Shown here piece by piece: positions 5,725 to 29,693 of a DNA stretch of 33,401 bases. Positions within the stretch are counted from its first letter, which is position 1; every line of letters begins with the position of its first letter. Origin of the DNA: a virus; the IMG/VR virus record IMGVR_UViG_3300009009_000033, positions 1-33,401 of that record, one strand, 5' to 3'. Made by a program: the position numbers and the translations under genes. A model generated the notes under the pieces. That model ran no database searches, was not told where the DNA came from, and was given only the letters and a program-made list of their open reading frames with translations.

Positions 5725-5732
5725 GCTTTCCA

Positions 5733-6005: not shown

Positions 6006-6020
6006 AGGACCAGAAACACG

Positions 6021-6051: not shown

Positions 6052-6071
6052 CATTGCGCGCTCGAGGCGAT

Positions 6072-6866: not shown

Positions 6867-6875
6867 GGTGTGTCC

Positions 6876-11339: not shown

Positions 11340-12698
11340 TTAGCTCAACCTGTACTTGGATTCCCAATGTGAGATCAGCTTCGTCAGCTCGGCGTCCGTT
11401 GCTCCGTGACCCTTGTAACCAACGAAGCCGCCCCACGCCATATTTTTGGAAGTGAATTGCGGAGCGTTGTACGGTGTTTCACCAAGCGCAAATCGGATAA
11501 AACTACCGGCCACGTTGCTGGTAACTGTGTAAGGCGTTAGGGTCGTTGTTCCTGAGCTGGTCTTGACCTTCCCCACAACCTCGTAGTTCGAGCCGGTGGG
11601 GCGGATCGCCAACGCAAGAATCGCCCGCTGGCTGTGGGGGAACGCGCCGTGATTATGAGCAGAAACCACTGACGTCCCATTGGACGTGATTCGCAGCAGT
11701 GCATTGCCAGAACTGAACAGGTGATAGATGACGTTCGAGTTGCTGATGCCCGCGAAGGACCACAGAATTCCAGCTGCGTTGGGCACAATGCACGGGCCCG
11801 CAATCGTGACCGCGAACTTCGGACTGCTCGCGCCCGGTGCTAGCTCGTCACAACGCAGCCCTACGCGGTAGTTGGTGCCAGCGCCGCCGAAATTGACGGT
11901 CGGCATGTCGTCGAGCCCCCAGGAGCTCGACACCTTCGTTAGCGTGGTGCCGGCTTCGGAATCCGGGGACCACTCAAACCCGAGCCGGGTGAAGAACTCG
12001 TTCTGTGGCAAGGCTTGGTCTGCAGCAAACCACAGCGTGCTGGGCTCAACGTCGAGTAGCGAGTTGAATCCCTCGGATGGATCGTATTCAACGGGCGCTG
12101 CTACTTCTTCCCAATCCCAAGAGCCGTAGCCGGGCGCGAGCGCGTCGAGGATTTCCCCCAAGCGTACGTTCATCAGAAACGCAAACTCGTCGCTCTTGAG
12201 CTCGCGCCGCGTGGCCTGCACCGTGATGAGCGAGCGACCAGACGTCCAAGGTTCTGTCCCTGTATCCGGCGGAGGCGTCTCCAAATCGGAGCCACGACGG
12301 TATTGCACGTCGACTAGATGATTCCCCAGCACCAACTTGCAGGCGTCCCATATCGAGCTTGGGTTGGGGCCGTGAAGGTTCACCCTGTGCTTCCACGCGC
12401 AAAGCGCCTGAATGTATTCGACAGAATCGCCCTCGCGGACTTGGATCCTGAATCGCTCAGCCCAGTTTCCAAGCAGCGCATAAGCCGTGCGCGGCGAAAG
12501 GTTCGCCTCGTAGCGCTGTTGCGCCTTCCACGCCATCGCAAGCACGCGGGCGGTTGCTAGTGTCTCACAGTCTGCGAGCGATCCAGGGACACTTTGGATA
12601 GCCGAGGGCAGCGCGGAGCGCAGCGCTTCGTGATAGATTCTCGCTACGGGCTTGGACCCGCCGAGTCGCACCGGAAAGCCGTGGTATCCTCCCAGCAT
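11340..12698 (-). CDS. gp48-like baseplate wedge protein fused to a lectin-like domain
   Basis: This 452-residue protein appears to have two parts. Residues 1-150 resemble Mu gp48/DUF2313 tail proteins, which close the baseplate between the gp47-type wedge and the fibres: a helix-rich start (KPVARIYHEALRSALPSAIQ, CETLATARVLAMAWKAQQRY), then FRIQVREGDSVEYIQALCAW. Residues about 215-452 look like a concanavalin/LamG-type beta-sandwich: PTVNFGGAGTNYR, KFAVTIAGPCIVP, NVIYHLFSSGNALLRI, ending in HGATDAELTKLISHWESKYRLS, the tail helix often seen in phage LamG domains. ATG 12698 overlaps the previous stop (TAATG); a longer upstream reading is rejected. The fusion would place a glycan-binding domain on the baseplate. 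Confidence 0.7.
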   Translation of the reverse strand: MLGGYHGFPVRLGGSKPVARIYHEALRSALPSAIQSVPGSLADCETLATARVLAMAWKAQQRYEANLSPRTAYALLGNWAERFRIQVREGDSVEYIQALCAWKHRVNLHGPNPSSIWDACKLVLGNHLVDVQYRRGSDLETPPPDTGTEPWTSGRSLITVQATRRELKSDEFAFLMNVRLGEILDALAPGYGSWDWEEVAAPVEYDPSEGFNSLLDVEPSTLWFAADQALPQNEFFTRLGFEWSPDSEAGTTLTKVSSSWGLDDMPTVNFGGAGTNYRVGLRCDELAPGASSPKFAVTIAGPCIVPNAAGILWSFAGISNSNVIYHLFSSGNALLRITSNGTSVVSAHNHGAFPHSQRAILALAIRPTGSNYEVVGKVKTSSGTTTLTPYTVTSNVAGSFIRFALGETPYNAPQFTSKNMAWGGFVGYKGHGATDAELTKLISHWESKYRLS

Positions 12699-13207
12699 TA
12701 CTCCACGCCCACGGTGATGGTTACGCCCGCCGCCGTGTCCACAAGCGTCGAGCTCATGTTCCAGACCCAGAGCTCGATGGTGTAGGCGCTCGTAACGACG
12801 GGCTGAACGATCAGCGGCGTCGTTCCGTGTGCTTGGATTGCGCACGTCTTCAGGTTGACCGCACCGATCTGGCCAAACCGGTCGGTGTACGTTTGATTCC
12901 ACGTTAGGCGGTAGTTACCGGTCCCGATTCGCGTCAGCGTCGGCGCGTTGGTGAGCCCAATCCCATGCTGCCCGCGGTAGGCGCCAATCGCGGGGGAGGC
13001 CCCAAGGGTCGCGTGCAGTCGTGCGAACTCCGACGTGCGCGACATGCCGGAGACTGTGGAGCAGTTCCCGTTGTACTGCTTCACGTCGACGTCGGTCTCT
13101 GGATTGACGACGGGCTGATCGGCGTAGTTTCTCTTCGTCACACCGCCGCCCAAGTCCTCGAGCGAGACGGGCGCGACCCAAATTGGAGGAGTGCTAGTGT
13201 TGGCCAT
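12698..13207 (-). CDS. Virion-like protein, paralogue of the gene at 29096-29608
   Basis: This 169-residue protein of unknown family is similar along its whole length to the 170-residue product encoded between the tRNA and the portal gene. The shared signature is DLGG-x2-T-x2-NYADQPVVN-x2-TDVD-x3-YN near residue 20, followed by RTS-x-F, a Leu-Gly turn, GTG-x-Y-x-L and a matching C-terminal beta-strand pattern. Both appear beta-rich and lack enzyme motifs, as expected for decoration or structural proteins. This copy sits between the gp47-like and gp48-like baseplate genes, a position without such a gene in Mu. ATG 13207 directly follows the gp47-like stop. Confidence 0.7.
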   Translation of the reverse strand: MANTSTPPIWVAPVSLEDLGGGVTKRNYADQPVVNPETDVDVKQYNGNCSTVSGMSRTSEFARLHATLGASPAIGAYRGQHGIGLTNAPTLTRIGTGNYRLTWNQTYTDRFGQIGAVNLKTCAIQAHGTTPLIVQPVVTSAYTIELWVWNMSSTLVDTAAGVTITVGVE

Positions 13208-14706
13208 CAGGTTGACGGGTAAACGGCGAAGTGTCTGAGCCGAAGGACGTTGGGAGCGGTGGTAATCGAGCCCGGAACAGTGGGCTTACTTTGAGATCGA
13301 TAAAGGTAGTCGACGTCAATCACGTCCCGGAACGCGCGCTGAAAAGCGTTCGTCTGCCGAGAGCTCAGCTCGAAAGGAAAGCTCTCGTAACCGTAAGGCC
13401 TACGGAAACCCCGTGTGGGGTTGTGGTTGAGTATGCTCGCCGAGGTCGTATTTTCCCCGGGACCCAATCCGTTCATTTGCGCCAACCAGGCAGCGCGATG
13501 CGCATCGGAATCGAAAGCCGCGGGACTTAAGAAGTCGCCCGCAGCGACGCCTGATGACTCGATAACGAGCGGGGCGTCCAGCGAGACAGTCCACGTCGCT
13601 CCGTCATCGTCGGCGACAACGACGGTCGACGTCACCCAACGCTGCTTCGTTGGACTCCACCACATGATCTGCGCCCCTGGGTAGGGCGCGTTCCCATTGG
13701 TCTCCGACTTCAAGATTGTGATCTCGGTTGTCGAACCAACCGAGTAGACCGTAACGCGGCCATCCACCGAAGCGACGGGCCACGGCAAGGTGTTTCGCCA
13801 ACCATTGCCGGCCAATCCCAGCGCGAGTGTAACATCGACATCCTCATCGACTGCGCTCTGTACTTCGAACTCGGCGAAGCCGGGCATCTCACCGAACACC
13901 GCGGCCGTAGCCAGCGTCACGGTGTCGTCGGGGACTGCACGCGAAAAGTCACTGCTCGATTCGTCGAGCGCCTTCACCAAGGCGACTTTGCAAGAACTGG
14001 GACCACCGATCGCTGGGTAAGCAAAGGCGGCTTGAATCGAAGCGTCGGCTGCCATGGCAACCTCGACGGCGTGACCCCAGTTGCCACCACCGGCGCGCGT
14101 CTGGCGTCGGATCCCGATCCGAGTGCGTTTCTGTTCCTCGCTCTCTTCGTCGGTACCGCCGCGGAGCCCTGGCGCCGCTACAGTCGCTTTTGCCGCGACG
14201 TTGAACGGGGGCGTCGTCCACACCACCTCAGTTCCGGCGGCGACGTTAGCCGACTTGCCGGGTTCCCTGCTTCGAACGCGAACACGGCCGCCGTTTTCTA
14301 TCCCCGCCTGTGTACCGGAGACCTGCACGAACAGACCGTTCTCTAGCTTTCCCTCGAGGCCATCCGCAAACACGCGCCCGCCGGTACCGAAAACCGTGAC
14401 GGTGACGTAGCCCACGCTGCGCGACGGCGGAATTGGGGGGAGGCCCGCGTCTGCTAGCCGCTGTTCGAGATCCGCGCCGGTGGCCGTCTGCTCTGAACTC
14501 GCGTCCGCCTTGATCGCGATGTTGTAGAACACCGGCTGTAGCATCGTCTCGATGGCAGTGAAGCGAATGTCCACTTCGGTGCCTTCGAAGGTTTCGACCG
14601 TGTCAAAACCGTTCTGCTGCAGCAAGGTCCGATAGTCATCGAGCGCCTGTCGCTTGAGCTCTCCCTGTGCTGGGACCCAGAGCTCTCCTGGTTTCGGTAC
14701 CGCCAT
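13207..14706 (-). CDS. Baseplate J-like wedge protein (Mu gp47-like)
   Basis: This 499-residue protein corresponds to the baseplate J / gp47 family, the main wedge component that forms the baseplate and contacts the gp46-type protein. It starts with PGELWVPAQGELKRQALDDYR and continues with VDIRFTAIETMLQPVFYNIAIKADASSEQTATGADLEQRLADAG. This is followed by the Ig-like central part RVFADGLEGKLENGLFVQVSG, AKATVAAPGLRGGTDEESEEQKRTRIGIRRQTRAGGGNWGHAVEVA, which contains the characteristic GG-D-E-E-S/T-x-x-R-R-R-I pattern. The C-terminus (RAFRDVIDVDYLYR) is helical. Its place after the gp46-like gene and before the gp48-like gene matches the Mu order. Confidence 0.88.
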   Translation of the reverse strand: MAVPKPGELWVPAQGELKRQALDDYRTLLQQNGFDTVETFEGTEVDIRFTAIETMLQPVFYNIAIKADASSEQTATGADLEQRLADAGLPPIPPSRSVGYVTVTVFGTGGRVFADGLEGKLENGLFVQVSGTQAGIENGGRVRVRSREPGKSANVAAGTEVVWTTPPFNVAAKATVAAPGLRGGTDEESEEQKRTRIGIRRQTRAGGGNWGHAVEVAMAADASIQAAFAYPAIGGPSSCKVALVKALDESSSDFSRAVPDDTVTLATAAVFGEMPGFAEFEVQSAVDEDVDVTLALGLAGNGWRNTLPWPVASVDGRVTVYSVGSTTEITILKSETNGNAPYPGAQIMWWSPTKQRWVTSTVVVADDDGATWTVSLDAPLVIESSGVAAGDFLSPAAFDSDAHRAAWLAQMNGLGPGENTTSASILNHNPTRGFRRPYGYESFPFELSSRQTNAFQRAFRDVIDVDYLYRSQSKPTVPGSITTAPNVLRLRHFAVYPST

Positions 14707-15128
14707 CAGCTGATAACCTCTCGCACTTGAGTTCCACCCAACGTGTTGTCCAGATAGTCCACGACTATCCGTGACGCCGTGCCGGACACCTCGACGGTGA
14801 CGGCAACAAGCCGGATGAGTTTTCGATTGATGTATCCGCGCAGCGCGACCCGAATCGCTGACTCGATTTGCCGCTGGTACGCCGCGGCAATCACAGGCGG
14901 GTAGTTCACACCAATCTCGGGCAGCACAATCGAGCTCCCGAGCTTCGAGCCCAACACGATCGCAACGCCCTGTTGGGTCGCGGTGGTGCGGTTGTTCGGT
15001 GAAAGATCGCCGTTGCGCGTGAGGGCACGGATTGGATTTGGATCCTGGTCCGCGAGCGGCGTCTCATAGGGGACGCCGTAGTTCCAGACACCCATTCCGA
15101 AGGGAGCAATCCCGTAGCCTCTTGCCAT
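14706..15128 (-). CDS. gp25/gpW-like baseplate protein (Mu gp46-like)
   Basis: This 140-residue protein fits the gp46/gp25 baseplate family: a short N-terminal region, then a block of hydrophobic helices and strands with SSIVLPEIGVNYPPVIAAAYQRQIESAIRVALRGY. A sheet with LIRLVAVTVEVSGTASRIVVDYLDN closes the protein. These proteins form the inner ring between the spike and the gp47-type wedge and nucleate sheath assembly. It is packed between gp45-like and gp47-like genes with overlapping stop and start codons. The assignment rests on size, profile and gene order more than on exact motif matches. Confidence 0.72.
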   Translation of the reverse strand: MARGYGIAPFGMGVWNYGVPYETPLADQDPNPIRALTRNGDLSPNNRTTATQQGVAIVLGSKLGSSIVLPEIGVNYPPVIAAAYQRQIESAIRVALRGYINRKLIRLVAVTVEVSGTASRIVVDYLDNTLGGTQVREVIS

Positions 15129-15673
15129 TATTCGCTGAACGTCTTCCCGCAGCCCACCGGCTGTGTCGCACCGGTCAGAGCCGCAACGATGGTTGCCTGC
15201 AGCCCGGCTCCGCCGTCTTGGGGCACCGGTACCGCGTTGGTGATCGCGTCGACGATGGCCTGAATTCGCGCCTCAACGAGCTCGGCAATCGCCAAGGCCT
15301 TGGCCCCACTAGGATCGCCCACCGTGAACTTGCTCGCGTTCGTGACTTGAACCTCGCCGCTTTCGCGCACGTAGATTCGAATAAGAGCAGGTCCGCTCGA
15401 GAAGAGCACCGAGTCACCGGGCTGCAAGGTTGCCAGTACCGCGGCGTTGCGTACGTCGCGCATGGCGACGACTTGCACGCTCGCCGGCGTCTCAGCGATA
15501 AGCGCTTGGCACGCGCTCGCGTCCGCGGGGAACGGGCGCGACCCCACACCGAGCGTCCCGAACACCGGTACTTGGTCGAAGACTTGGAATTCCTCGTCGT
15601 CGGAGTTGCCGGTTTGCACGGTCATCGCGCCTTCGGCAACTTCGCTGGCTCCGACGTCAACAATCGAGATCAT
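15128..15673 (-). CDS. gp45-like baseplate spike/puncturing protein
   Basis: This 181-residue protein matches the position and character of Mu gp45. An OB-like N-terminal half includes FQVFDQVPVFGTLGVGSRPFPADASACQAL, and a central strand pair includes VQVVAMRDVRNAAVLATLQPGDSVLFSSG. Next comes ALIRIYVRESGEVQVTNASKFTVGD, the repeating strand pattern expected of a trimeric beta-helical spike. The C-terminus is helical and ends CGKTFSE. It would form the membrane-piercing tip at the end of the tail tube. The start overlaps the gp44-like stop by four bases (ATGA). Confidence 0.75.
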   Translation of the reverse strand: MISIVDVGASEVAEGAMTVQTGNSDDEEFQVFDQVPVFGTLGVGSRPFPADASACQALIAETPASVQVVAMRDVRNAAVLATLQPGDSVLFSSGPALIRIYVRESGEVQVTNASKFTVGDPSGAKALAIAELVEARIQAIVDAITNAVPVPQDGGAGLQATIVAALTGATQPVGCGKTFSE

Positions 15674-16833
15674 AGTTTCACCGTCTGCGGTCGAACAAGG
15701 GTGAGACGCGTCGTCTCTTGGTCCCCAGAAAGCGAGAAGGATCGCTCGGCAAGGTAGAGGTTTTCGATCAGGCCCGCCGCCTCGTCGATGTAGTCAACGA
15801 TGGTGTCGGTCGCGAACGTCGCGCCGTTTTGAGCGTGGTCTGGCACCGTGCACCGAACAACCAACGTGTTTCGGAAGAACTCAACAAACTCCCGGTTCAG
15901 TCGGTTCTCCAATTCGAACCCGTCGTTCGTGTGGTGGTCGAGAATGAATAACGGATTGTAGACCCGCTGCGTTCCGCCCTGGAGCAAGCCGGGAGTCGGC
16001 GAACCCTTCGCGTTGTATTTGGCGTAGATCGCTCGGCCGCCAAGGATTGCGGCGATCTCGGCATTGGCGCGAATCTGTTCCTCGAGCGCCGCTTGGGCCT
16101 TGGCGCCCACGAGGCGCTCTCTTGGGTCACCGCTGCGAGAGAACCCCTGCACGTACGTCGGCACGCCCTGGTAGCCACGCGAAACAGTGCGCGAGAGCAA
16201 GTTGTTGCCCTGCGGATTTTCCAAGAACCGCTTCAGGTGGAAGGTAGGCTCCTGGTTGTACTCGGGCTTCGCGAGTGCCAGCTTTGAACCGGATACGCCC
16301 GGCTGAACGTAGTATCCGTACTTCGCAGCCAGTCGATTCACGAGGCTCCAAGCCTTGTCACCGGCATTTATCTTCTCGCGTGAAACCTTCTTGGTCGGCT
16401 TCGCGGCAGTGACCGAGGGCGCCGCAGAGCACTGAGCTTGGCGCAGCTCGTTATTGTCGCTCAGTACCTCGGTGAAACCAAAGGGAGCAACCTGGCGTTT
16501 GAGCGCTTCAAGCAGCGCCGTGTTGTACGGGATTGGGTTTCCTGGATCGAGTGTGCCGTCGAGGCGATAGGTATGGTCGAGCCCTCGGATTTGGATCGTG
16601 TCGTCTTCTTCGATCTCTTGGTCGAGAATGACTCCGGAGAGGACCAGGTCCTCGTCCTGGTAGATGTTCACCGGCGTGAGAGGGTTGGTCAGCTCGCGCA
16701 GCCCTACCGTGTCCCGAACGTCCGCCAGGTGAAACGTGAAGCGGTGCGGCGGCAGGAAGAACGACGCGTCAATGTCGTACGAGAGGAACCGCGTCAAGCG
16801 CCGCCCCTGCTCGGGAAATTCCAACGCGATCAT
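15670..16833 (-). CDS. Baseplate hub protein (Mu gp44/gpP, gpD-like)
   Basis: This 387-residue protein has the profile of the gp44/gpD/gp27 baseplate-hub family, which forms a trimeric ring capping the tube and joins the spike. It starts with a beta-barrel (ASFFLPPHRFTFHLADVRD, TPVNIYQDEDLVLSGVILDQEIEEDDTIQIRGLDH). It continues through YNTALLEALKRQVAPFGFTE and the KPTKKVSREKINAGDKAWSLVNRLAAKYGYYVQPGVSG segment typical of gpP-like proteins. The C-terminal barrel contains FRNTLVVRCTVPDHAQNGATFATDTIVDYIDE. It sits between gpN-like and gp45-like genes, as in Mu. Overlaps are four bases at both ends. Confidence 0.85.
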   Translation of the reverse strand: MIALEFPEQGRRLTRFLSYDIDASFFLPPHRFTFHLADVRDTVGLRELTNPLTPVNIYQDEDLVLSGVILDQEIEEDDTIQIRGLDHTYRLDGTLDPGNPIPYNTALLEALKRQVAPFGFTEVLSDNNELRQAQCSAAPSVTAAKPTKKVSREKINAGDKAWSLVNRLAAKYGYYVQPGVSGSKLALAKPEYNQEPTFHLKRFLENPQGNNLLSRTVSRGYQGVPTYVQGFSRSGDPRERLVGAKAQAALEEQIRANAEIAAILGGRAIYAKYNAKGSPTPGLLQGGTQRVYNPLFILDHHTNDGFELENRLNREFVEFFRNTLVVRCTVPDHAQNGATFATDTIVDYIDEAAGLIENLYLAERSFSLSGDQETTRLTLVRPQTVKL

Positions 16834-17786
16834 GCCGGCACTTCGTAGAACACCGTCGAGCCCGCCTTTGCCATGGTTTCCCCGACCAAGTTGGGGTTGC
16901 GGTCGAGCAATTCGTCCTGGGGGATGCCAAGATCGGCAGCGAGCATTGGAAGCGCGGTGTCGACCAAGATGGCGCGTGCGCGGATTTTCTTCCGTGAGCC
17001 CGTAACCGCACTCGTCATGTCGCGCGCGGAACGCGCCAGGCGCTTTGCCGACGCAATCACTGGCCAGTTTCTAATGTCTCCCAACGTCTCGATTTCGGTG
17101 CGCGTGGAGTCGATCTTGTTCGCGAAGCGGTCCATAGTGGCCGCCACCTTGTTGATCTTTTGGTTCGCCTTCGAAGCGAACACGTAGGGGGCGTTCAGGA
17201 TGTCCAACGGCGACTCTTCACCGGCAAGGTTCAACTGACCAGGGAAGATGGCAGCGTATTGGCGCTCGTATTCCTCCGCAGCGACCTTCGCAGCGTTGAT
17301 GGTGAGCGGCGTCGGTTCGCTTTCCGCGTCGAGCTCGGTGTCCTTGACGAAAGAGATTTGTACCGGCACGCCGCCACGGTTCTGCGACGTAATGGTGTAA
17401 CCAATCTGCACGCAGTAGGCGTCGCGCGCGCCGTGCACTGGGTCCACGAGCTCGCCCGGAGTTTCCTCGTCGAACAGCTCGAGCAGCCGCGGAAAGATAT
17501 CCGTGAACGCATTCGCCCAACGCTGGTTGAACATGTTCTGAAACAACGGGATCGTGTAGGTGATCGCGTCGCTGTCTGAGCCCATGTTGCGAATGAGTTG
17601 CCCGCTCAAGTAGCTAACCGAGTGACGGGTGAGACGCTTAACCTTCTCGTAGCTGATCTCACTGCACGGCAGTTCCAAACCCTTCCAGCTTAGGGTGAAC
17701 AGCGTTTTCAGGACGTCGACGCCCCCTTGACGAGTCGAGCTCGTTCCAGGGCCGCCGATCGGTCCAATTGCTACGGGGGGAATCAT
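16830..17786 (-). CDS. DNA-circularisation-type tail protein (Mu gpN-like) with LysM-like end
   Basis: This 318-residue protein resembles the N-terminal DNA-circulation family of Mu gpN, a tail/baseplate component. The N-terminal part reads LFTLSWKGLELPCSEISYEKVKRLTRHSVSYLSGQLIRNMGSDSDAITYTIPLF, the strand-rich domain that starts these proteins. A long helical middle (residues 170-250) follows, with AAKVAAEEYERQYAAIF and NQKINKVAATMDRFANKIDS. The C-terminal ~50 residues (LPMLAADLGIPQDELLDRNPNL then AGSTVFYEVPA) look like a LysM-type module, as in many tail proteins that grip peptidoglycan or the hub. It lies between the tape measure and the hub gene. Confidence 0.8.
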   Translation of the reverse strand: MIPPVAIGPIGGPGTSSTRQGGVDVLKTLFTLSWKGLELPCSEISYEKVKRLTRHSVSYLSGQLIRNMGSDSDAITYTIPLFQNMFNQRWANAFTDIFPRLLELFDEETPGELVDPVHGARDAYCVQIGYTITSQNRGGVPVQISFVKDTELDAESEPTPLTINAAKVAAEEYERQYAAIFPGQLNLAGEESPLDILNAPYVFASKANQKINKVAATMDRFANKIDSTRTEIETLGDIRNWPVIASAKRLARSARDMTSAVTGSRKKIRARAILVDTALPMLAADLGIPQDELLDRNPNLVGETMAKAGSTVFYEVPA

Positions 17787-20545: not shown

Positions 20546-20548
20546 GCG

Positions 20549-21373: not shown

Positions 21374-21756
21374 TCGAGTGCGTTGCTCTGACCGATGAAC
21401 GTGAAATCCACCTTGGTCGTATCGTTGATGGATCCGGCGACTTTGGCGTTCTGGAAGTAGCCTTCGCCAATATACGTCTGCGCACCGATCGGAAACTGGG
21501 CCTCGTGAATCCCACCGCTCTGCGAAGCCGCGGAGACGAAATCGAAGTCAGCCTGCCCGCCGAGCGGCACGTAACACGAACCCGTGATGGTCGTGGCACC
21601 CGCGCCGACGGAGAACCCGCTGAAGCCTTGCTCGATATCGTCGACTCGGATCTTGCCTGACTCGTTCGAAAGCTCGACGTTCTGCAGGCGGCCAATCTTG
21701 GCCCCGTCGATGAACAAGAAGAGCTTGGTTGTCTGCTCTAATGGTCTGTCTGCCAT
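21370..21756 (-). CDS. Tail tube protein (Mu gpM-like)
   Basis: This 128-residue protein is a beta-barrel tube subunit by sequence profile: TTKLFLFIDGAKIGRLQNVELSNESGKIRVDDIE, ATTITGSCYVPLGGQADFDFVSAASQSGG, YFQNAKVAGSINDTTKVDFTFIGQSNAL. The length is typical of contractile tube proteins, which stack as hexamers inside the sheath. It directly follows the sheath gene in transcription order, as expected of tube/sheath pairs, and overlaps the chaperone start by four bases. Confidence 0.85.
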   Translation of the reverse strand: MADRPLEQTTKLFLFIDGAKIGRLQNVELSNESGKIRVDDIEQGFSGFSVGAGATTITGSCYVPLGGQADFDFVSAASQSGGIHEAQFPIGAQTYIGEGYFQNAKVAGSINDTTKVDFTFIGQSNALE

Positions 21757-21785
21757 TGTTGTAGTCCCTTCTGATTAACCGCGTC

Positions 21786-23321
21786 TTAGGCCGCGGACGT
21801 TTCGTTGATCTCGACGCCGAACTGAGAAGCCAGGTTCACGATGTCGAGGTTCATCGTGCATTCGATGCGCGACGCGTTCTGATCGCTGATGGTTACGTTC
21901 ACGCTCTCCTTGGCGAGGTCGACGTCCTTCAGGCAGCCCGCGCACTGGTTCAGGAGGCTGTAGACCGTCGGCGCAAACTGCGACTCGGTGAGCACCTTCG
22001 CATCCACACGCTGCGTGAAGTCCACAGAACCGTCGTCGTTGCGCTTGTCAGGGCGAAGGAAGAAGCCGCCGTAGGTAACAGCGATCTTCGTTACCAGTCG
22101 ATCCGCGATGTGATGCACTGCACTGATGCGGTGCACGTCGGCCGCGCGCTGGTCGTCGACTGTACCGCTTGCATCCTTGCTGCGGGTGGTGACGAACTTC
22201 ACGAGGTAGGCCCCAACGTCATCCGTTGCGATCGGCGAGACACCGTCCAGCAGCGCCGCATTCAGATCATCGGTGTCGGGGCGGTCGGCACCATTGAACA
22301 CGGGGAGCAGCTCGGGAGAGCGAGCTCCGATCATGTTCGCCATGTTGAACTTCTCTGCGCCTTCGCGACGCTGACGCGTTGCCGTGGCCCAACCGACGAG
22401 CTCAGCTGTGTCGTGCTCGCTGTTCGCTTGCGCCACAATGCTGAGCAGCTCGCTGTTCGGCGTGAGAGCGAGGGTCTGAGCCGACGAAAGCGATCCGGTG
22501 TATCCCAGAATGCTCACGCAGCGCTTGCCTACACCCGCGGTGTTTTTGAACGAGATGTGCGCGTAGACCGCGGCGATAATGGCCGCCGACGTCGCGCACG
22601 GTGCAACGTAGTAGATCCCGTATTGTTCGAGGATGACCAATGCGGCCGTGAGGGCAACGGCCTCCGTGGTTGCGCCGTCGACACCGGGGGTGCCCGTGCC
22701 CATACCAAGGGCAGCACCCGCAGTGGCCGTCGTTACACCAGAGCCGCTCGAGGCGCTCGCGCGGTACCGAACGACGCCAAGCGTCGCGGTACCCGTCGAA
22801 AGCCCCGTGTGCTTATGCGTGAACGTCACGACGCCGGCCGCGTTGCTTGCGATGACCGGTAAGTGGGAACGGCCGTTGACCGCCTCCACGAGCTTACCCG
22901 CGATGACCGTCGGGGTGTCGCCCTTGGCAATACCAACGGTGACGAGCTCACCCGCAAGCGTGCATTCGATGGTTCCGCTTCCCGTTGCCGTGCCGGTGAT
23001 CGTGATCGTGCCAGTCGCAGCGGTTCCGGCGCCGTCCGCATAGGGCAAAGCCCACACGACGCCACCCTTGTGGATCCGGAAGTGCTTTCGAAGCGAACGG
23101 TGCAAGTCCGAGCCTTTGCCGAAGAACTTGGCAGCGTCCGACTCGCCCTTGACGCGAGTCATCGTGAGCGGAGCCACGGAGCCGGAAGTCAGCTTCTTGC
23201 CGACGTACACAGCTGCGCGCGAAGGGGCGGGGGCCGAGGATTGACCAGCCGCCCAGTTAATTTGCAACCCGATTCCGGGGACAACCCGATCCTGCGGGAA
23301 TCCGTCTAGAGCTAGTGCCAT
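21786..23321 (-). CDS. Contractile tail sheath protein (Mu gpL-like)
   Basis: This 511-residue protein is the Mu gpL type of sheath subunit. The N-terminal core has SRAAVYVGKKLTSGSVAPLTMTRVKGESDAAKFFGKGSDLHRSLRKHFR, where the FGKGSxLH signature is typical of these sheaths. The central part carries beta insertions rich in Gly/Thr/Ala (GTAATGTITITGTATGSG). The C-terminal region (IADRLVTKIAVTYGGFFLRPDK) includes the handshake strands, followed by the last block ALNQC-like SLLNQCAGCLKDVDLAKESVNVTISDQNASRIECTMNLDIVNLASQF. It drives tail contraction around the tube. It shows that the phage is myovirus-like, unlike the short-tailed Mx8. Confidence 0.92.
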   Translation of the reverse strand: MALALDGFPQDRVVPGIGLQINWAAGQSSAPAPSRAAVYVGKKLTSGSVAPLTMTRVKGESDAAKFFGKGSDLHRSLRKHFRIHKGGVVWALPYADGAGTAATGTITITGTATGSGTIECTLAGELVTVGIAKGDTPTVIAGKLVEAVNGRSHLPVIASNAAGVVTFTHKHTGLSTGTATLGVVRYRASASSGSGVTTATAGAALGMGTGTPGVDGATTEAVALTAALVILEQYGIYYVAPCATSAAIIAAVYAHISFKNTAGVGKRCVSILGYTGSLSSAQTLALTPNSELLSIVAQANSEHDTAELVGWATATRQRREGAEKFNMANMIGARSPELLPVFNGADRPDTDDLNAALLDGVSPIATDDVGAYLVKFVTTRSKDASGTVDDQRAADVHRISAVHHIADRLVTKIAVTYGGFFLRPDKRNDDGSVDFTQRVDAKVLTESQFAPTVYSLLNQCAGCLKDVDLAKESVNVTISDQNASRIECTMNLDIVNLASQFGVEINETSAA

Positions 23322-23350
23322 TTATGCGCTCTCCTGTTTGGAGGTGGTGG

Positions 23351-23770
23351 TTACTTGATCTCCGGCGCTTCCAATGCGGGCGCCGTTTTGGTTTTGGTGA
23401 GACGATTGGAAGACTTGAGCTCGACGCCCACTGTGTCCGCCGTCGCCTTGTCGGCGGGAGGCGCTTCGGGCTTGGCATCGCCATTGCTTGCAGCATCGCG
23501 TTTGGACTCGTCGGAAGCAGGCAGCTCGACTCCTGCTGCGTCGGCAGTCGCCTCGTCTGCGGGGAGCAGCTCGCCGCGCTGAAGCAATTTCAGGACTCTT
23601 TGCCCTGGGCGCCCTTCCGCCTCGAACTCCGTTGGCTCTTCCTTCAGCGGATAGGTGCCGGTTTCCGGATCGTAACGGCGTCCGATGTAACCCGCGGGGT
23701 TTCCGACGAACCTAACGTGATTGGGGTCGCTGACGTGGCAATCTGGATTCGAGAAAACGGTGAGTTTCAT
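23351..23770 (-). CDS. DUF2635-like (Mu gp38-type) protein with internal repeat
   Basis: This 139-residue protein precedes the sheath, where Mu has gp38 (DUF2635). The N-terminal part KLTVFSNPDCHVSDPNHVRFVGNPAGYIGRRYDPETGTYPL has the DP-x-G-V profile of that family. The C-terminal half is different: low complexity with an internal duplication, PADEATADAAGVELPASDESK against PADKATADTVGVELKSSN. The last residues are basic then acidic (KTKTAPALEAPEIK). The role is unknown; the position suggests an assembly factor for sheath or terminator. It overlaps the gp10-like gene by four bases. Confidence 0.6.
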   Translation of the reverse strand: MKLTVFSNPDCHVSDPNHVRFVGNPAGYIGRRYDPETGTYPLKEEPTEFEAEGRPGQRVLKLLQRGELLPADEATADAAGVELPASDESKRDAASNGDAKPEAPPADKATADTVGVELKSSNRLTKTKTAPALEAPEIK

Positions 23771-24153
23771 TCGGTCATGTCCTTGACGAAGTGTTCGGCG
23801 GCGGCTTCGGCCGCAGCGGTGACGAACTTGTGAGCCCGGGTGCCCGGGTGGTTAACCTTGCGAGTGGTCACGAGCCGCCCGTCGACTCGGAACACGAGCC
23901 GCGCCGCCGTCCGTGGCACGATCGCGTGCGGCCGCGTCCCCTCCTCGAGATAGTGAGCAGCGGGGCTGTCGTTCGTGATGCGTAGATGAGTGGGTGAAAC
24001 GAGCTGCGCTCGCGTCGCGGCTTTGACGACGTGACCGCCGAAAGATTGGTTCGCGCGCGAGTGTTCCACTGCAACGCGCCCAGACTCCTGGAGCTTTTCG
24101 GCGACCTCGTGACGAAACTCATCCGCGAAGTCACCAAGCTTGGTGGTGGTCAA
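23767..24153 (-). CDS. HK97 gp10-like neck/tail-completion protein
   Basis: This 128-residue protein has the typical gp10-like layout: an N-terminal helix (DFADEFRHEVAEKLQESGRVAVEHSRAN), a central beta sheet with SPTHLRITNDSPAAHYLEEGTRPHAIVPR, and the RTAARLVFRVDGRLVTTRKVNHPGTRAHKFV segment with the HPGT motif. A C-terminal helix ends the protein. These proteins complete the tail terminator or neck that joins head and tail. Its start is TTG 24153, overlapping the previous stop (TTGA); no stronger start is visible. A Shine-Dalgarno sequence is not evident, so coupled initiation is likely. Confidence 0.8.
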   Translation of the reverse strand: MTTTKLGDFADEFRHEVAEKLQESGRVAVEHSRANQSFGGHVVKAATRAQLVSPTHLRITNDSPAAHYLEEGTRPHAIVPRTAARLVFRVDGRLVTTRKVNHPGTRAHKFVTAAAEAAAEHFVKDMTE

Positions 24154-24866
24154 AGGTCGACGGATACTTGGACGAGAGGCGCGATCTCTTCGCCCTGCGG
24201 CCCAAGATTCAGCTCCGCGTCCACGCCGCCAAGCGGCGGGAGCGCCTCGGTGACGTTCGGGTTTTGCGTGACGATCTCGGCGGCGTCGATGCGCACCTGG
24301 AGGGAAGGCAGCCGAATGTCGGTACCGGCGATCACGTGAGGCTTTTGCGCGTCACGAATGAAGAGGCTCGCGTACTTCGCGCGCGACTTCTCACCGTAGA
24401 GACTTTGCCGCCCCGAGTTGTAGTCGGGGTGCCAGCCCTCTTGGAGGACACCGCGGATCGCGTTTTCAACGCCAGTCAGAAACCCGTTCGCTCGAACCCA
24501 TTCTTCAGGACTCAGCTGCGAAAGCATGTAGCGCACCGTGATGGTGCTGAGCTTTGCGCGCCGCCCGTCGAGGTCGAGCACGCGCTCACCGCCGCCAGCG
24601 GACGAAATGCAAAGCGAGGGGTGATCGAACTGCAGAAGGTCATCCCACTCGAGCACGTCGAACGGGACCTTGCTTCTAACGGCCGAGGTGCCGCTGGGAA
24701 ACAGCGCGAGAAACAACGCGCCGCACTCAGCGACGATTGCAGTCTCGATGAGGTCGAGCAGAACGCCCAAGCCCCTGTCGGTGACGACATGCGCGCCGCC
24801 GTCCACGAGCCCCGCGGGATTCGCAGGGAGCTGGTTTGCTCCAACGGTGGTGCCGAGTGTTGCCAT
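24150..24866 (-). CDS. Hypothetical neck/tail-terminator region protein, 238 aa
   Basis: I do not recognise this protein. It is a mixed alpha/beta protein with an N-terminal helix-rich part (GLGVLLDLIETAIVAECGALFLALFPSG), a middle segment (AKLSTITVRYMLSQLSPEEWVRANGFLTG) and a C-terminal beta part (DIRLPSLQVRIDAAEIVTQNPNV, EEIAPLVQVSVDL). The position between the connector genes and the gp10-like gene suggests a neck or tail-terminator role. ATG 24866 is preferred to the TTG three bases upstream. It follows the previous stop (TGA 24870-24872) by three bases. Confidence 0.6.
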   Translation of the reverse strand: MATLGTTVGANQLPANPAGLVDGGAHVVTDRGLGVLLDLIETAIVAECGALFLALFPSGTSAVRSKVPFDVLEWDDLLQFDHPSLCISSAGGGERVLDLDGRRAKLSTITVRYMLSQLSPEEWVRANGFLTGVENAIRGVLQEGWHPDYNSGRQSLYGEKSRAKYASLFIRDAQKPHVIAGTDIRLPSLQVRIDAAEIVTQNPNVTEALPPLGGVDAELNLGPQGEEIAPLVQVSVDL

Positions 24867-24869
24867 CAA

Positions 24870-25307
24870 TCAGGCCCTCTTGAGTGTCAGGTAGTATCCG
24901 AGCGGGTCGCTCGTATCGAGCGAGTAGAGTTCGAAGCGAACAGCGCTCATGCCGGGCCCACTGACGAGGTAGTGGACAGAAGCCGCGCCCGCGCCGCGCA
25001 GTTGGTCAGCAGTGTATCCGCCACCGTTGTGCGATGGCGTGATTGGGCCGAAGCGCACCAATGCGTCTTCTGGGATCCCCAAGCCGGCCGCTTCTTTGCG
25101 CAGCACCTTAAAGGCTGGGTTCTGACCTGCCTCATAGACAGCCAGCGCGGTCGAAGTGCTCGCCGATGTCTTGCCCTTGAAGAACGCGTTTTTGGAAGCG
25201 TCCGAGCCGGTCACAACCGTCACCGTATGCGGGTTCGCGCCAAGCTTCCCCGCAATCGCGTTCAGCTTCGGCATGAGCGGCACTAGGTTTTCGAACAGCG
25301 TCGCCAT
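24870..25307 (-). CDS. Hypothetical connector/head-completion protein, 145 aa
   Basis: This 145-residue protein has no family I can name. It has an N-terminal helix (TLFENLVPLMPKLNAIAGKLG), a strand HTVTVVTGSDASK, then a Gly/Ala/Ser-rich stretch (KNAFFKGKTSASTSTALAVYEAG) and a C-terminal beta part with VHYLVSGPGMSAVRFELYSL and LGYYLTLKRA. The order after capsid and before tail genes points to a head-closure or stopper role. Its ATG overlaps the previous stop (TGATG). Confidence 0.55.
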   Translation of the reverse strand: MATLFENLVPLMPKLNAIAGKLGANPHTVTVVTGSDASKNAFFKGKTSASTSTALAVYEAGQNPAFKVLRKEAAGLGIPEDALVRFGPITPSHNGGGYTADQLRGAGAASVHYLVSGPGMSAVRFELYSLDTSDPLGYYLTLKRA

Positions 25308-25666
25308 CAGGCACCAAAAAACAACGCGCCGGGGCCTCGTTTGGCTCCACTTCCAAACGGAAAGGCTTGCACCTCCACCCCGAGCGCGTTGGCGAGTTTC
25401 TGCACCTGGTTGTTTCCAAGGTGCTCTAGCTCTGCGATGGCCCCCCCAGGGGTGAAAGCCAGGGTGTTCACCTGCGCAATGCCGGCCACGTCCCGCGCGT
25501 AACCAGCAATGCGCGACTCCACATCCGTGATTTCGTCGACGATGGCCAAGACCTCGTCGCTCGCGAGCTGAGACAACCCGTCGAGCCTCGTGTCGAGGCC
25601 AACATACGAAAGCGGCCAGCCCAGGAACTTCAGCACCTGGATTTTGGAGTCAGCGGGGAATGCCAA
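25307..25666 (-). CDS. Hypothetical head-tail connector protein, 119 aa
   Basis: This 119-residue, mostly helical protein includes KIQVLKFLGWPLSYVGLDTRLDGLSQL, VLAIVDEITDVESRIAGYARDVAG and a C-terminal Gly/Pro-rich end (GSGAKRGPGALFFG). A mid-size helical protein directly after the capsid block is the usual pattern for head-tail adaptor (gp6-type) connectors. The start is TTG 25666; no ATG with a good ribosome site is visible nearby, and the gene begins right after the previous stop. The function is inferred from place only. Confidence 0.55.
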   Translation of the reverse strand: MAFPADSKIQVLKFLGWPLSYVGLDTRLDGLSQLASDEVLAIVDEITDVESRIAGYARDVAGIAQVNTLAFTPGGAIAELEHLGNNQVQKLANALGVEVQAFPFGSGAKRGPGALFFGA

Positions 25667-25669
25667 GTG

Positions 25670-25999
25670 TTACGACTTCGCGGTGGAAGCGTCCTGGATC
25701 TTCTTGATCAGGATCGCTTTGGTGTCTTCGTCTGCGACGACCAAGCTCAGCTCCTTCGCCTTCGCGAGCAGCTCTTCCTTGTTCATCCGATCCAGTGGCT
25801 TCTCGTCGCTGGACTGCTCGACTTCAGAAGGCGGTTTCAAGGGGTAGCCGCGTTCTTTGACGTACTCGACGAGACTCGCGGGAATCTCGAGCTCTTTGCC
25901 CGGCTCGGCCGTGTGCGTTTGCTTGTTCAAGTAGACACACACGGCCTCCTTCGCGATGTTCACGAAGGTGACGGTCCGATCCTTAGATGAGGATGTCAT
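25670..25999 (-). CDS. Small capsid-region protein with Rho-N/HeH-like C-terminus
   Basis: This ~109-residue protein has a beta-rich N-terminal part (RTVTFVNIAKEAVCVYLNKQTHTAEPG) and a Lys/Glu-rich C-terminal helical unit MNKEELLAKAKELSLVVADEDTKAILIKKIQDA. That unit looks like the helix-extended-loop-helix (Rho-N/HeH/SAP-type) fold seen in several phage capsid-adjacent proteins. ATG 25999 is preferred over GTG 26008; both overlap the capsid stop. It is probably a head-completion or decoration protein. Nothing more can be claimed. Confidence 0.6.
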   Translation of the reverse strand: MTSSSKDRTVTFVNIAKEAVCVYLNKQTHTAEPGKELEIPASLVEYVKERGYPLKPPSEVEQSSDEKPLDRMNKEELLAKAKELSLVVADEDTKAILIKKIQDASTAKS

Positions 26000-27002
26000 T
26001 GAGGACACCGCCCTTCTTCGGGTTGGGGTTCACCAGCTGCAGCATGGTGCGGAGCACCCACTTGCTGGCGTGAGCACCGGTCGAATCTACGACCAGCTGA
26101 ATGCCGTAAGGCAGACCGCTCAGAATCACCTTGGACTCGTCGGTCGGGTAGGGCAGCACTTGCCAGTGGAGCCCGCGCTTTGGCGACGACCAGTCGATAT
26201 ACGCCGCGCTAATCGAGCACTTAGTCGACGTGTCGCTCGGATGAGCATAGGCCGCCTGCGGCGCTTCGATGAAGTTGAGCCCGTCGAACACAACGCGCGG
26301 TTGCACGCCGCCAAGCATGGCTTGGCTCGTGTAGTTCACTTGACTCTCGTAGAGGTCAATCACCCGGTTTACGCCAGTCGCGTGCGTGAAGAAGACCAGC
26401 TCCTCTTTCAACACTTCACTGCGCTCCACAACTGCGGCCACGAAGTCGCGCAAGCGCTTTTTCGTGAGCGCAGCGGCTGTGCCGGGCGTGGTTGTGTTCG
26501 CGCTCATAACCAACGCGGCGAAGTCGGTTACCGATGCTTGGTTGATGCCTGCATAGGAGCCGGTCGCGTCGTTGGACATGTGCAAACCAGCGATCTGGTT
26601 CGCGCCGCCCGCACCCTGAAACATTTCGCTCTGAATCTTCGCCAGGAAGTCGCGAATACCTTCCCCGAGTGCCTCACCCTTGAGGTCCTGGATACCATCG
26701 GGGTTTCCAAAGCGGGCGCGTGCGATAGCCTCGTCGGTCAGCTCGATTGGGTGATCCATACGGCCCCAATCGAGCTTTGCCCGGATGTACGTGCGGGCCG
26801 TGCCAGCAGCAAAGTCGGCACCTTCCCCGTGGTAACGAACAGTCCCGGTGCTCGTATCGATGTTCCACGCGGGACCCGACGGATCGTCAGGCCCGACCAC
26901 GGGTACACCAGCAAGAGCGGGAACCTTCTTGTTCGCCGTGCGCTGAATTACTGGTGCGATCTTTAGCCCTTGTTGAAGGGCAGCTGAAGCTGTTGCGGCC
27001 AT
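25983..27002 (-). CDS. Major capsid protein
   Basis: This 339-residue protein has a capsid-like profile: N-terminal arm ALQQGLKIAPVIQRTANKKVPALAG, then TVRYHGEGADFAAGTARTYIRAKLDWGRMDHPIELTDEAIARARFG, QDLKGEALGEGIRDFLAKIQSEMFQ (a spine-type helix), and TKKRLRDFVAAVVERSEVLKEELVFFTHATGVNRVIDLYESQVNYTSQ. The C-terminal domain ends VLRTMLQLVNPNPKKGGVLNDILI. An HK97-like fold is expected but not proven from sequence. It follows a scaffold gene and has a strong ribosome site, AAGGAG eight bases before ATG, fitting the most abundant late product. Confidence 0.85.
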   Translation of the reverse strand: MAATASAALQQGLKIAPVIQRTANKKVPALAGVPVVGPDDPSGPAWNIDTSTGTVRYHGEGADFAAGTARTYIRAKLDWGRMDHPIELTDEAIARARFGNPDGIQDLKGEALGEGIRDFLAKIQSEMFQGAGGANQIAGLHMSNDATGSYAGINQASVTDFAALVMSANTTTPGTAAALTKKRLRDFVAAVVERSEVLKEELVFFTHATGVNRVIDLYESQVNYTSQAMLGGVQPRVVFDGLNFIEAPQAAYAHPSDTSTKCSISAAYIDWSSPKRGLHWQVLPYPTDESKVILSGLPYGIQLVVDSTGAHASKWVLRTMLQLVNPNPKKGGVLNDILI

Positions 27003-27027
27003 GAGGCTCTCCTTGTTGTGTTAAATC

Positions 27028-27648
27028 TTACAGTTGAATGCCGGCCCCTTTGATGGCCGATGCAATCTCGTTCGTTTGCGTGTTACCTTCGCCAGTGAAC
27101 ACATGTGGTTGCACGGGCGTTTGGACCTGCGACGCTGGGGCAGGGCGGTAACCCTTGTGGACATCGAGCGCGATCCACTTCTCGAATGCCTCGCCCACGG
27201 CCGCGTAGTGTTTGCCGTCGACCAAAAAGGTCGCGGTTTCCTTTTCGACGTCTAGCGTCGCGGTCGAAAGGAACTTGTCCTTGATCAAATCCTCGACGCC
27301 GGTCGCAAGCTTTCCGGTGCTCACCTTGTCGAGCTCACTGCGCAATGCAGCGCGTACAGCCTTTTCAGAGGAGCCCCGCAGGCGTTCCTCGAGCACTTTG
27401 ATCCGCTCTTGAGAAGCAAGCTCAGAGGGGCTGGGATCCTGATCGTTGGGGGCCTTTTTCTCCTCGGGCTTCTTCTCTTCCTTCGGTGGGACGAACTTCT
27501 TCGTCAGGTCCGTCAGCTTTCCGTCGAACTTGGTATCCAGCTCAACGAAACGCTTCTCTACGCGCTTGTCGAACTCATCCAGCAGACCCGCTAGGTCGTT
27601 GGCGGTTATTGGCTTGCTTTCCTTGGGGTCCTTGTTTTCCGCTGACAT
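27028..27648 (-). CDS. Capsid scaffold-like protein
   Basis: This 206-residue protein is charged and helical, as scaffolds are: LLDEFDKRVEKRFVELDTKFDGKLTDLTKKF, a Lys/Glu/Pro-rich linker (PPKEEKKPEEKKAPNDQDP), then ASQERIKVLEERLRGSSEKAVRAALRSELDK. The C-terminal part (VFTGEGNTQTNEIASAIKGAGIQL) is less charged and may dock on the capsid. Portal, scaffold, capsid is the standard order. GGAG lies 10 bases upstream of ATG 27648. The gene starts 74 bases inside the end of the portal gene in another frame, longer than the usual 4-base overlaps here. Confidence 0.8.
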   Translation of the reverse strand: MSAENKDPKESKPITANDLAGLLDEFDKRVEKRFVELDTKFDGKLTDLTKKFVPPKEEKKPEEKKAPNDQDPSPSELASQERIKVLEERLRGSSEKAVRAALRSELDKVSTGKLATGVEDLIKDKFLSTATLDVEKETATFLVDGKHYAAVGEAFEKWIALDVHKGYRPAPASQVQTPVQPHVFTGEGNTQTNEIASAIKGAGIQL

Positions 27649-29095
27649 CTGGCTTCTTCTCCGGTTGCTCTTTCGGCTTGATCTCGACCTTCATGAGGTC
27701 GTCTCGAATCTTCTGCTTTAGCTCCTCCGACGCTTCTGGAAGCGCCTGCGCGATTAGGCGAGCCATGAGTTCGCGCTGCGACGTCTCACCAAAATTGGCC
27801 AGCGCCGAATAGTCGATACTGGCGAGCGTTAGAGCGATCTCGGACAGCTCTTGCAGGTCCCAATCGTCGAGTTTCTCGAATCCCTCGACGTCGAATCCGT
27901 CGGTCTTGTCGCCTCGAGCGATAGCTACGAGCTCCAAAAGACGTTTCGCGTGGTCGCGAATCAAGGCGCCGTAACTTTTGAGGGAAATGTGACCGGTTTG
28001 GGTGTCTTGAGACTTCGCTGATGCGCTACGCCATGGCTTGTTGCGCTCGGAATCGACCAAGAAGTCGAGGTTCGCGGTGCGAAACACCTTTGACTCCGTA
28101 TCCTTGAGTTCCTCGACGAGACTCTCTCGCGACTCAGAGGGAGGAACGAGAAAGTCGATCTCGTCTTTGACGCCGATTCGGATCCCGTGATCGCCCAACT
28201 CGGGCTTGGCCGCGGTGTCTTCCGTCTTTTGGACGATGACAGGAAACGCTGTCTTGTTGTTGTGGTAGCTTAATGCAGTTCTGGAGCGGTAGTTGGCCAC
28301 GCAAGGCGACCGCAGTTGCGCACCGAGCCAAATACCGTCATGAAGCAGCCACAGCTCAACAGGGACGCGGCCAGTAGTGTTCTGAACAGCCTTGCTGGGC
28401 GCAAGGTCGTTCTGACCAGGCACCGCCCCGCCTCGGTCGACGTGAACTTCATAGTATTCGGTCTGTGTGCGGGTGTGAACCCAGTAGCGCTCGACGCGGC
28501 GCTCTCCGTCGTCACCAGGGTTGGCTCTGGGGTACTCGGTATTACCAAGAATGATCCATAGCAGTTGACCTCGGTCGTCGAGTTCGAAGTCAAAGATCTC
28601 GCGCGCGCCGAAACGTCGGACCGTTACTTCACGAGCGCCCATCGCATCGGCCTCTGCCTCATTGCGAGGCGTCCGCGGGACTTCGCGGCGCTCGATAACG
28701 GTCGCCACCATCCCTCCCACGAGAAGCTCGACCAGCGAAAGCTGCAGGTAGTCATGGAGCTTGGTGCCGTTGCCGTCACAGTCATCCTTGAACCGCTGAT
28801 AGAAACCGTCCTCCGCAGGGGTCTTAAAGATGAGCGGAAAGCCAAAGAGAAACGACGAGTAGTAGTTCACCACCGTCGCAAACAAATTCACGTAGCTGAC
28901 GCGCGAAACGCTCAGTACAGTTTGGTAGGTGCGTTCGCTCATCAAGTCAGGCTTCGGCATGAAGCGACTCAAGCGATCCTCGAGCTCTTCGCCGCCCTTG
29001 TACAGCGCCTCGCAGTCGACAACGAGTTCGTGTCGGTATGTGCGCTGCACACCGGAGCGTTGCTCGCGGCGGCGGCGTAACAAGTCGTACTTCAC
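27575..29095 (-). CDS. Portal protein
   Basis: This 506-residue protein has the portal profile: an N-terminal helical region (RTYRHELVVDCEALYKGGEELEDRLSRFM, RTYQTVLSVSRVSYVNLFATVVNYYSSFLFGFPLIFK), the stem/wing part (HDYLQLSLVELLVGGMVATVIERREV, IFDFELDDRGQLLWIILGNTEYP) and a clip-like middle. The helical end is LLELVAIARGDKTDGFDVEGFEKLDDW. The C-terminal ~40 residues are Lys/Gln/Pro-rich and disordered. It should form the dodecameric ring through which DNA enters. The start is GTG 29095, next to the previous stop. The scaffold gene starts inside its final 74 bases. It resembles SPP1-type portals more than Mu gp29 to my eye. Confidence 0.82.
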   Translation of the reverse strand: MKYDLLRRRREQRSGVQRTYRHELVVDCEALYKGGEELEDRLSRFMPKPDLMSERTYQTVLSVSRVSYVNLFATVVNYYSSFLFGFPLIFKTPAEDGFYQRFKDDCDGNGTKLHDYLQLSLVELLVGGMVATVIERREVPRTPRNEAEADAMGAREVTVRRFGAREIFDFELDDRGQLLWIILGNTEYPRANPGDDGERRVERYWVHTRTQTEYYEVHVDRGGAVPGQNDLAPSKAVQNTTGRVPVELWLLHDGIWLGAQLRSPCVANYRSRTALSYHNNKTAFPVIVQKTEDTAAKPELGDHGIRIGVKDEIDFLVPPSESRESLVEELKDTESKVFRTANLDFLVDSERNKPWRSASAKSQDTQTGHISLKSYGALIRDHAKRLLELVAIARGDKTDGFDVEGFEKLDDWDLQELSEIALTLASIDYSALANFGETSQRELMARLIAQALPEASEELKQKIRDDLMKVEIKPKEQPEKKPDVSGKQGPQGKQANNRQRPSGSAG

Positions 29096-29608
29096 TTACA
29101 GGAAGTTGCTCCACATCGCGAGACTGACGCCCACGAGATTGTTCGACAGTGCGCCAGCGGCGGCAAGGTTGCGCACCGAGACTTCGACGACGTTCGCCTC
29201 CATCACGCGGGCGATTGGGTAGAGAATGCCATCCTCGTACTGGCACGAAATCATCACCAGGCCGAGGTTGGTCGGCACGCTGCGCCCGGCTTGGTCGGTC
29301 ACGCTCGTGGGGAAACGCAAGTTGTAGACGCCGGTCCCAACGACCTCGACGGTCACCTCGATTTCGGCGCCCTGCGTCTTTACATAGTCGACGAGGTTTA
29401 CCCCTTCGCCGAGCGACGCCTGCAAAATGCAAAACGGCGACGTGCGCGCAACCTGAGCGGTGGCAAACGCGAGCGAGTTGTACTCTTGGGAGTCGACGTC
29501 AGTGTCGCGGTTCACGACAGGCTGGTCGGCGTAGTTCTTGCGCGTGAGACGCCCGCCAAGGTCGTCCCATGTCGGAAGCTTTGCCCAGAGGGATTGGATC
29601 AGGTTCAT
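29096..29608 (-). CDS. Virion-like protein, paralogue of the gene at 12698-13207
   Basis: This 170-residue protein of unknown family shares a full-length resemblance with the 169-residue product in the baseplate region: DLGG-x-LT-x-KNYADQPVVN-x2-TDVD near residue 17, then RTSPF, ASLGEG, GTGVYNLRFP, and a C-terminal ANVVEVSVRN followed by NLVGVSLAMW. It is beta-rich with no enzyme motif. It sits between TerL/tRNA and portal, a place where head-completion genes are not normally found. Two copies in one virion operon suggest a decoration or shared structural module that duplicated. No strong ribosome site is visible before ATG 29608, which lies 13 bases after the tRNA. Confidence 0.7.
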   Translation of the reverse strand: MNLIQSLWAKLPTWDDLGGRLTRKNYADQPVVNRDTDVDSQEYNSLAFATAQVARTSPFCILQASLGEGVNLVDYVKTQGAEIEVTVEVVGTGVYNLRFPTSVTDQAGRSVPTNLGLVMISCQYEDGILYPIARVMEANVVEVSVRNLAAAGALSNNLVGVSLAMWSNFL

Positions 29609-29621
29609 GTGTTGACCAAAG

Positions 29622-29693
29622 GGACGAGTGTTGGGTTCGAACCAACGACCTCCGGTTTATGAGACCGGCAAGCTACCACTGCTCCAACTCGTC
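29622..29693 (-). tRNA. tRNA-Met(CAT), elongator-type or tRNA-Ile2
   Basis: A complete cloverleaf can be folded by hand: acceptor GACGAGT with ACTCGTC, D stem GAGC/GCTT (one G-T pair) with a 7-base loop, anticodon stem CCGGT/ACCGG with loop CTCATAA, a 5-base variable loop, and T stem GTTGG/CCAAC with loop TTCGAAC. The anticodon is CAT. The GC-run anticodon stem and the unpaired first base typical of initiator tRNA are absent, so it is elongator Met, or Ile2 if lysidine-modified. CCA is not encoded. Its first base is also the last base of the TerL stop codon. It would be excised from the late mRNA. Confidence 0.93.

Follow-up and report, generated by a model that had tools for sequence, protein, structure and literature searches.

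The window, a metagenomic IMG/VR record of 33.4 kb with no stated completeness, encodes two old copies of one small protein, as judged from their sequences, here called copy A and copy B (Table 1); with their relatives they form what we refer to as family X. The family is baseplate-associated. Copy A occupies an ordinary place and copy B an unusual one, matched in 0/16 related records. Comparison of the N-terminal arms makes it most likely that B docks where A does, with its outer domain changed, and we give an even chance to the reading that B is a second, displaced baseplate spike in A's slot-type.

Table 1. Features of the window and fusion ORFs in related loci. Positions are those of the window unless a locus is named.
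Feature	Position	Strand	Basis
Copy A, family X	12698..13207	-	169 aa; ORF and profile match; baseplate cluster
Putative docking arm of A, residues 16-46 (DLGG...NYADQPVVN...TDVD)	13070..13162	-	20/31 identical to B
Predicted beta-sandwich of A, residues 60-168	12704..13030	-	AlphaFold2, block pLDDT 84-96; tailspike/fibre-like matches
Copy B, family X	29096..29608	-	170 aa; BLASTP to A E 3e-23, relatives' profile E 4e-13
Putative docking arm of B, residues 14-44	29477..29569	-	65% identical to A arm versus 24% for the sandwich
Predicted beta-sandwich of B, residues 60-165	29114..29431	-	AlphaFold2, block pLDDT 63-90; top fold matches as for A
gp48-like wedge protein	11340..12701	-	directly downstream of A; BLASTP to relatives' gp48-like proteins E 1e-10 to 4e-18
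Baseplate J (Mu gp47-like wedge protein)	13207..14706	-	directly upstream of A; PF04865 E 3e-17, phrog_6 E 2e-15
Tail sheath	21786..23321	-	phrog_165 E 2.5e-65; 38% identical to MW202476 sheath
Portal protein	27575..29095	-	phrog_145 E 6e-19
tRNA-Met(CAT)	29621..29693	-	between TerL and B; ARAGORN, Rfam tRNA 65.4 bits
Terminase large subunit (TerL)	29693..31153	-	PF17289, PF03237, phrog_979
X2-gp48 fusion ORFs	L026:12071-13249, L028:7994-9184, L029:12046-13239, L030:11883-13055		

Sequence relationship of the two copies

Open reading frames for both copies were recovered where the first-pass annotation had placed them, on the minus strand, an orientation that it had not given. Its description of the two products as paralogs along their full length is borne out: BLASTP found 53 of 162 residues identical (33%; 77 bits; E 3e-23 as a single comparison), the full-length alignment scored 189 against a shuffle maximum of 61, and the similarity remained significant beyond the N-terminal motif (from A47 and B45 onwards, 73 against 58). 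The sandwich alone scored 58 against 52, and in each of these three comparisons none of 2,000 shuffles reached the true score. A likeness confined to the short motif, with differing folds, is contradicted by this retained score and by the identical order of predicted fold elements described below. The profile search that had been proposed as a check recovered both copies; a profile of 27 relatives, from which A and B were both left out, gave E 4e-27 for A and E 4e-13 for B, and it still found both after removal of its N-terminus (E 1e-22 and 1.5e-8, respectively), the best remaining ORF of the window reaching 0.024. By sequence both copies belong to family X, but the position shared by the relatives, with J on one side and a gp48-like gene on the other, is found for A and not for B. 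No third copy was found in the 33.4 kb record.

No long DNA repeat joins A and B. Since 7 of the 20 identical arm residues use different codons, the pair is not a recent copy, and recent duplication or exchange is ruled out on both grounds. Old gene conversion could have contributed part of the similarity between the two arms.

Relatives and database status

Family X is absent from the Pfam, PHROG and NCBIfam models, in line with the first-pass view of a virion-type family lacking a known description. Neither copy matched a family in Pfam even at E 1 or in NCBIfam even at E 10, and the matches to phrog_29752 and phrog_35643, which involved the C-terminal part of A (E 0.033) and the N-terminal part of B (E 0.044), were not significant. 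Scans of viral contigs with A alone and B alone, of viral and genome contigs with the A-B alignment, and of viral contigs with a portal alignment gave no match, nor did tblastn of B in phages (at E 1) or of A in plasmids; a profile search of the PDB gave matches only at E 0.006 or worse, without clear meaning. A literature search by the accession and isolate names of one relative found no paper on family X. The hits of a tblastn search with the copy from locus L040, all at E 0.1 or worse and mostly homing endonucleases, were rejected.

In the phage collection, tblastn of A returned one record, MW202476.1 (E 1e-3), in which two tandem family X homologs stand behind baseplate J. Scanning with an alignment of A and a relative yielded loci L008-L010, and a four-J alignment yielded 14 viral loci (L027-L040) and one Burkholderiales MAG contig (L026), with L032, L034 and L035 sharing records with L008, L010 and L009, respectively. 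An earlier J alignment had yielded one distant J locus (L007), whose record had no match to the family X profile, and a profile search of the order to which the Burkholderiales MAG belongs (399 genomes) matched that MAG alone.

A 21-row profile was run over the full length of 16 phage or prophage records. Family X was present in all of them, every copy lying directly behind J and none elsewhere; about 14 of these records are independent, because G002/G003 and G012/G013 are near-identical pairs. A tandem pair, X1 followed by X2, occurs in 15 of the 16, with a single copy in L040; in the relatives X1 has 173-190 aa, and X2 is a protein of 146-150 aa or a domain. L040 is a 114 kb virus record with a lone family X gene, and genes were recorded there at 5718-6212 and 6212-6874.

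Association with the baseplate wedge

The gene that follows the X pair in the relatives is gp48-like and is BLASTP-related to the gene downstream of A in the window. Matches to PF10076 (Phage_Mu_Gp48) are weak and below the curated cut-off (E 0.0014 for P0007 of MW202476, E 0.0073 for L030). In four loci (L026, L028, L029 and L030) X2 and the gp48-like protein are fused into one ORF, and this natural fusion suggests that the two are baseplate neighbours. In addition, the gp48-like protein opens, in 8 of the 16 records, with the ~26 residues that begin the X1 arm and the family profile (E 4e-5 to 0.018), and the L040 gp48-like protein begins with an X2-type arm, which ranked first, above all 2,000 shuffles. 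An X2 arm on the gp48-like protein of the window was unsupported (rank 24 of 2,009 targets, mostly shuffles).

The gp48 relation, the X2 fusion and the arm-like start of gp48-like proteins place family X in the wedge region of the baseplate. Association with the baseplate as such follows from the copies behind J, the gp48 fusion and the tailspike/fibre-like predicted sandwich. By analogy with known phages, we infer a docking function for the family.

Gene neighbourhood in the window

The first-pass annotation had set A in the baseplate cluster and B between TerL with its tRNA and the portal, and both neighbourhoods were found as described: A stands between baseplate J and the gp48-like gene, directly behind J as do all copies in the 16/16 related records, and B stands between TerL with tRNA-Met and the portal gene. 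The start of the gp48-like gene overlaps the stop of A, and its product carries a long C-terminal extension of ~200 residues, which by eye looks similar to a laminin-G/concanavalin-like domain. The GTG start of the portal gene abuts the stop codon of B with zero gap. The tail sheath gene marks the virion as contractile.

Some further features of the late operon were recorded. The final base of the TerL stop codon is also the first of the tRNA-Met, whose end lies 12 bases ahead of the start codon (ATG) of B; processing of this tRNA would split the late transcript between the terminase and the head genes. At the operon's tail end, 6327-6866 (minus strand) matches phrog_3758 (head and packaging, virion structural protein; E 3e-11), a further apparent head-class gene in the tail region. 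The 582 aa product of the gene at 7199-8947 (minus strand) has a very high content of Ala, Ser, Thr and Val and contains repeat-like stretches; no clear family was found for it.

In the four relatives with a recognised portal (MW202476, G002, G003 and G009), the portal gene comes after the terminase ORF within about 16 bases, with no family X copy between them; in G002, G003 and G009 the terminase was taken as the ORF before the portal, by place and length, and has no clear BLASTP match to TerL of the window. The window TerL has no detectable BLASTP relation to that of MW202476 (E 0.18) and is unrelated by BLASTP to those of G002 and G009, while sheath (38% identity), J (31%) and portal (26%) are related between the window and MW202476. 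B and the tRNA-Met therefore lie at the joint of a mosaic, and because the late operon is mosaic there, the position of B is weak evidence for its location in the virion. Among the best 80 of at least 561 TerL-related loci no family X copy was found near TerL (best E 0.16), so B was not demonstrably brought in with that terminase type. The proposal that one family serves both head and tail thus lacks direct support, since it rests only on the position of the B gene and all copies in 16/16 related records lie behind J.

Predicted structure

AlphaFold2 models were built from 21-row alignments, all rows of which were drawn from the 29-row set described below. The pLDDT was 79.6 for A and a middling 71.7 for B. 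In both models a poorly predicted N-terminal region precedes a single helix (about residues 40-58), and the ten strands occur in identical order. The structure prediction proposed as a check thus gives agreeing folds, although the models share their rows, each alignment containing both proteins, and are therefore not independent. Family X is accordingly predicted to consist of an N-terminal arm, a helix and a tailspike/fibre-like beta-sandwich.

Foldseek found no PDB chain for A at E 0.001 (best 0.03). Against viral models (BFVD) it returned 43 matches for A and 14 for B, the named ones including tail fibre and structural proteins. The top VIA-align score belonged to 7dda, a shrimp-virus envelope protein and thus not a phage protein (Z 8.3 for A, 8.8 for B), followed by the tailspikes of phiAB6 (8.0, 7.7) and Pam1 (6.3, 6.3) and by AP22 gp53 (5.9, 5.7), with H-type agglutinins and R-pyocin fibres at lower ranks for both copies. 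These values are a hint only, because Z near 8 also arises without kinship.

Arms, slots and phylogeny

Arm (A16-46) and sandwich (A59-169) were compared separately, and the tree and slot table were built on 29 rows (13 X1, 13 X2, L040, A and B), leaving out L009, L032, L034, L035 and L037 as identical or nearly so to L008, L010 and L036. X1 arms, which occupy the same slot in different phages, are 45-77% identical, whereas the X1 and X2 arms of one phage, which belong to two slots, are 6-26% identical (13 pairs, gaps counted). The arms of A and B agree at 20 of 31 residues (65%) and their sandwiches at 26 of 108 (24%); the A sandwich resembles that of B no more than it does those of X1 (mean 23%) or X2 (mean 25%). 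This pattern argues for one slot-type arm carrying two bodies. Some X2-X2 pairs reach higher arm identities (up to 93%, over only 15 columns) at similar sandwich identity, so A-B is not an outlier overall, and the slot rule still fits.

The arm of A has low pLDDT and is mostly without predicted structure, and B has the same kind of arm at its N-terminus, with no separate neck-type domain predicted. The tree, rooted at its midpoint, pairs A with B as sisters (96/76) apart from both X1 and X2, with a branch length of 1.97 for B versus 0.8. Because same-slot relatives share arms and different-slot ones do not, the docking site of B is most likely that of A.

Interpretation of copy B

In the preferred reading, family X would comprise small baseplate proteins of Mu-like contractile phages, whose N-terminal arm of ~45 residues would dock on the baseplate wedge, on J or the gp48-like protein, followed by a short helix and a predicted C-terminal sandwich of tailspike/fibre type that would face outward and probably touch the cell surface. 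In the relatives, the two slots between J and gp48 would be taken by two family X proteins with different arms; in the phage of the window one slot-type (A) would be left, and an old duplicate, B, would now lie between TerL and portal. Since B keeps the arm of A, it should go to an A-type site, and the baseplate would gain a second outer domain, as mixed or alternative spikes. Docking partner, outward position, surface binding and the placement of B in the tail are all inferred. Counting against this reading, B lies at the head end of the operon, outside the tail cluster.

That position, beside the portal gene, would suit B as a collar, neck or head-vertex spike that presents the same outer domain at the head-tail joint, and Vibrio phage XM1 offers a precedent, its baseplate spike gp18 and neck spike gp40 having homologous bodies (PMC10457771). 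We nevertheless regard this as unlikely, given that no copy occurs near TerL or portal in the 16/16 related records or in the best 80 of at least 561 TerL loci, and that the collar spike of XM1 binds the neck through a separate Ig-like N-terminal domain, whereas A and B have their arm in common and diverge in the body. It is fairly doubtful, too, that the same docking arm serves both ends of the virion, with B held at the neck or portal vertex by a site mimicking A's wedge site; a single family of small spikes would then present different outer domains at the baseplate and at the head-tail joint.

The mosaic joint bears on two further explanations. B may be a passenger left there by exchange of the terminase module, perhaps poorly expressed and with no fixed role: TerL is unrelated by BLASTP to those of MW202476, G002 and G009 while portal, sheath and J are related, a tRNA sits at the same joint, and by eye no clear Shine-Dalgarno sequence precedes B. 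The ORF of B is nevertheless intact despite deep divergence, its arm is 65% conserved and its stop abuts the portal start, and we consider a mere passenger quite unlikely. Alternatively, the contig could be a chimera of two phages, A and B never having shared a virion, as the terminase mosaic and the metagenomic origin of a record with no completeness given might suggest; with a continuous, co-directional operon and with A and B as each other's closest relatives in the tree, this is highly improbable. B could also be an assembly factor or placeholder that occupies A's docking site or binds A and is not a lasting part of the virion, which its A-like arm, its faster-evolving body (branch 1.97 vs 0.8) and its different place in the operon would allow, but its sandwich is kept and, even with the arm excluded, is recognised by the family profile (E 1.5e-8), making such a role improbable.

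These results supply a gene context at the baseplate, together with a predicted fold, for proteins of Mu-like contractile phages that had no family name. The rule proposed here, in which the arm denotes the slot and the body the target, could place a displaced spike gene in the virion without an isolate. Should B be a second baseplate spike, dual outer domains would be served from one slot; should it sit at the neck, it would represent a new way of reusing a tail part at the head.

Comparison with known systems

The closest known arrangement is that of MW202476.1 (Caudoviricetes sp. isolate cta39025), where UOF77308.1 and the next CDS (8697-9146), annotated as 'hypothetical protein', stand behind J as A does. 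These homologs align with A over its full length (26% over 95% of A, E 1e-3; profile E 1e-9). They differ from the pair in the window in forming a tandem X1 + X2 with different arms, and there is no copy at TerL/portal.

The sandwiches of phiAB6, Pam1, AP22 gp53 and R-pyocin fibres resemble those of A and B over about 70-95 residues (Z 4.3-8.0), with no sequence relation detected and Z within the range seen without kinship. Docking has parallels in Mu and XM1. Fibre gp49 of Mu is attached by its N-terminus to a loop of gp48 (PMC11915804), and in XM1 two spike sets dock on one wedge protein, gp17, with gp18 as the baseplate spike (PMC10457771). In both phages outer proteins are anchored on a gp48-type wedge protein (PMC11915804, PMC10457771); theirs are long trimeric fibres or tailspikes, whereas A and B have ~170 aa and are likened to them by description, not by sequence.

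Two receptor-binding proteins in one baseplate are described for the lactococcal 936 phage Phi4.2, which differs in being a siphophage (PMC6315561). XM1 provides an example of a contractile virion that bears two sets of related spikes, gp40 at the collar and gp18 at the baseplate (PMC10457771). Its spikes are alike in their bodies and the one at the collar is separately anchored, whereas A and B have alike anchors and differing bodies; because the A/B pattern thus reverses the XM1 collar pattern, the baseplate is favoured for B.
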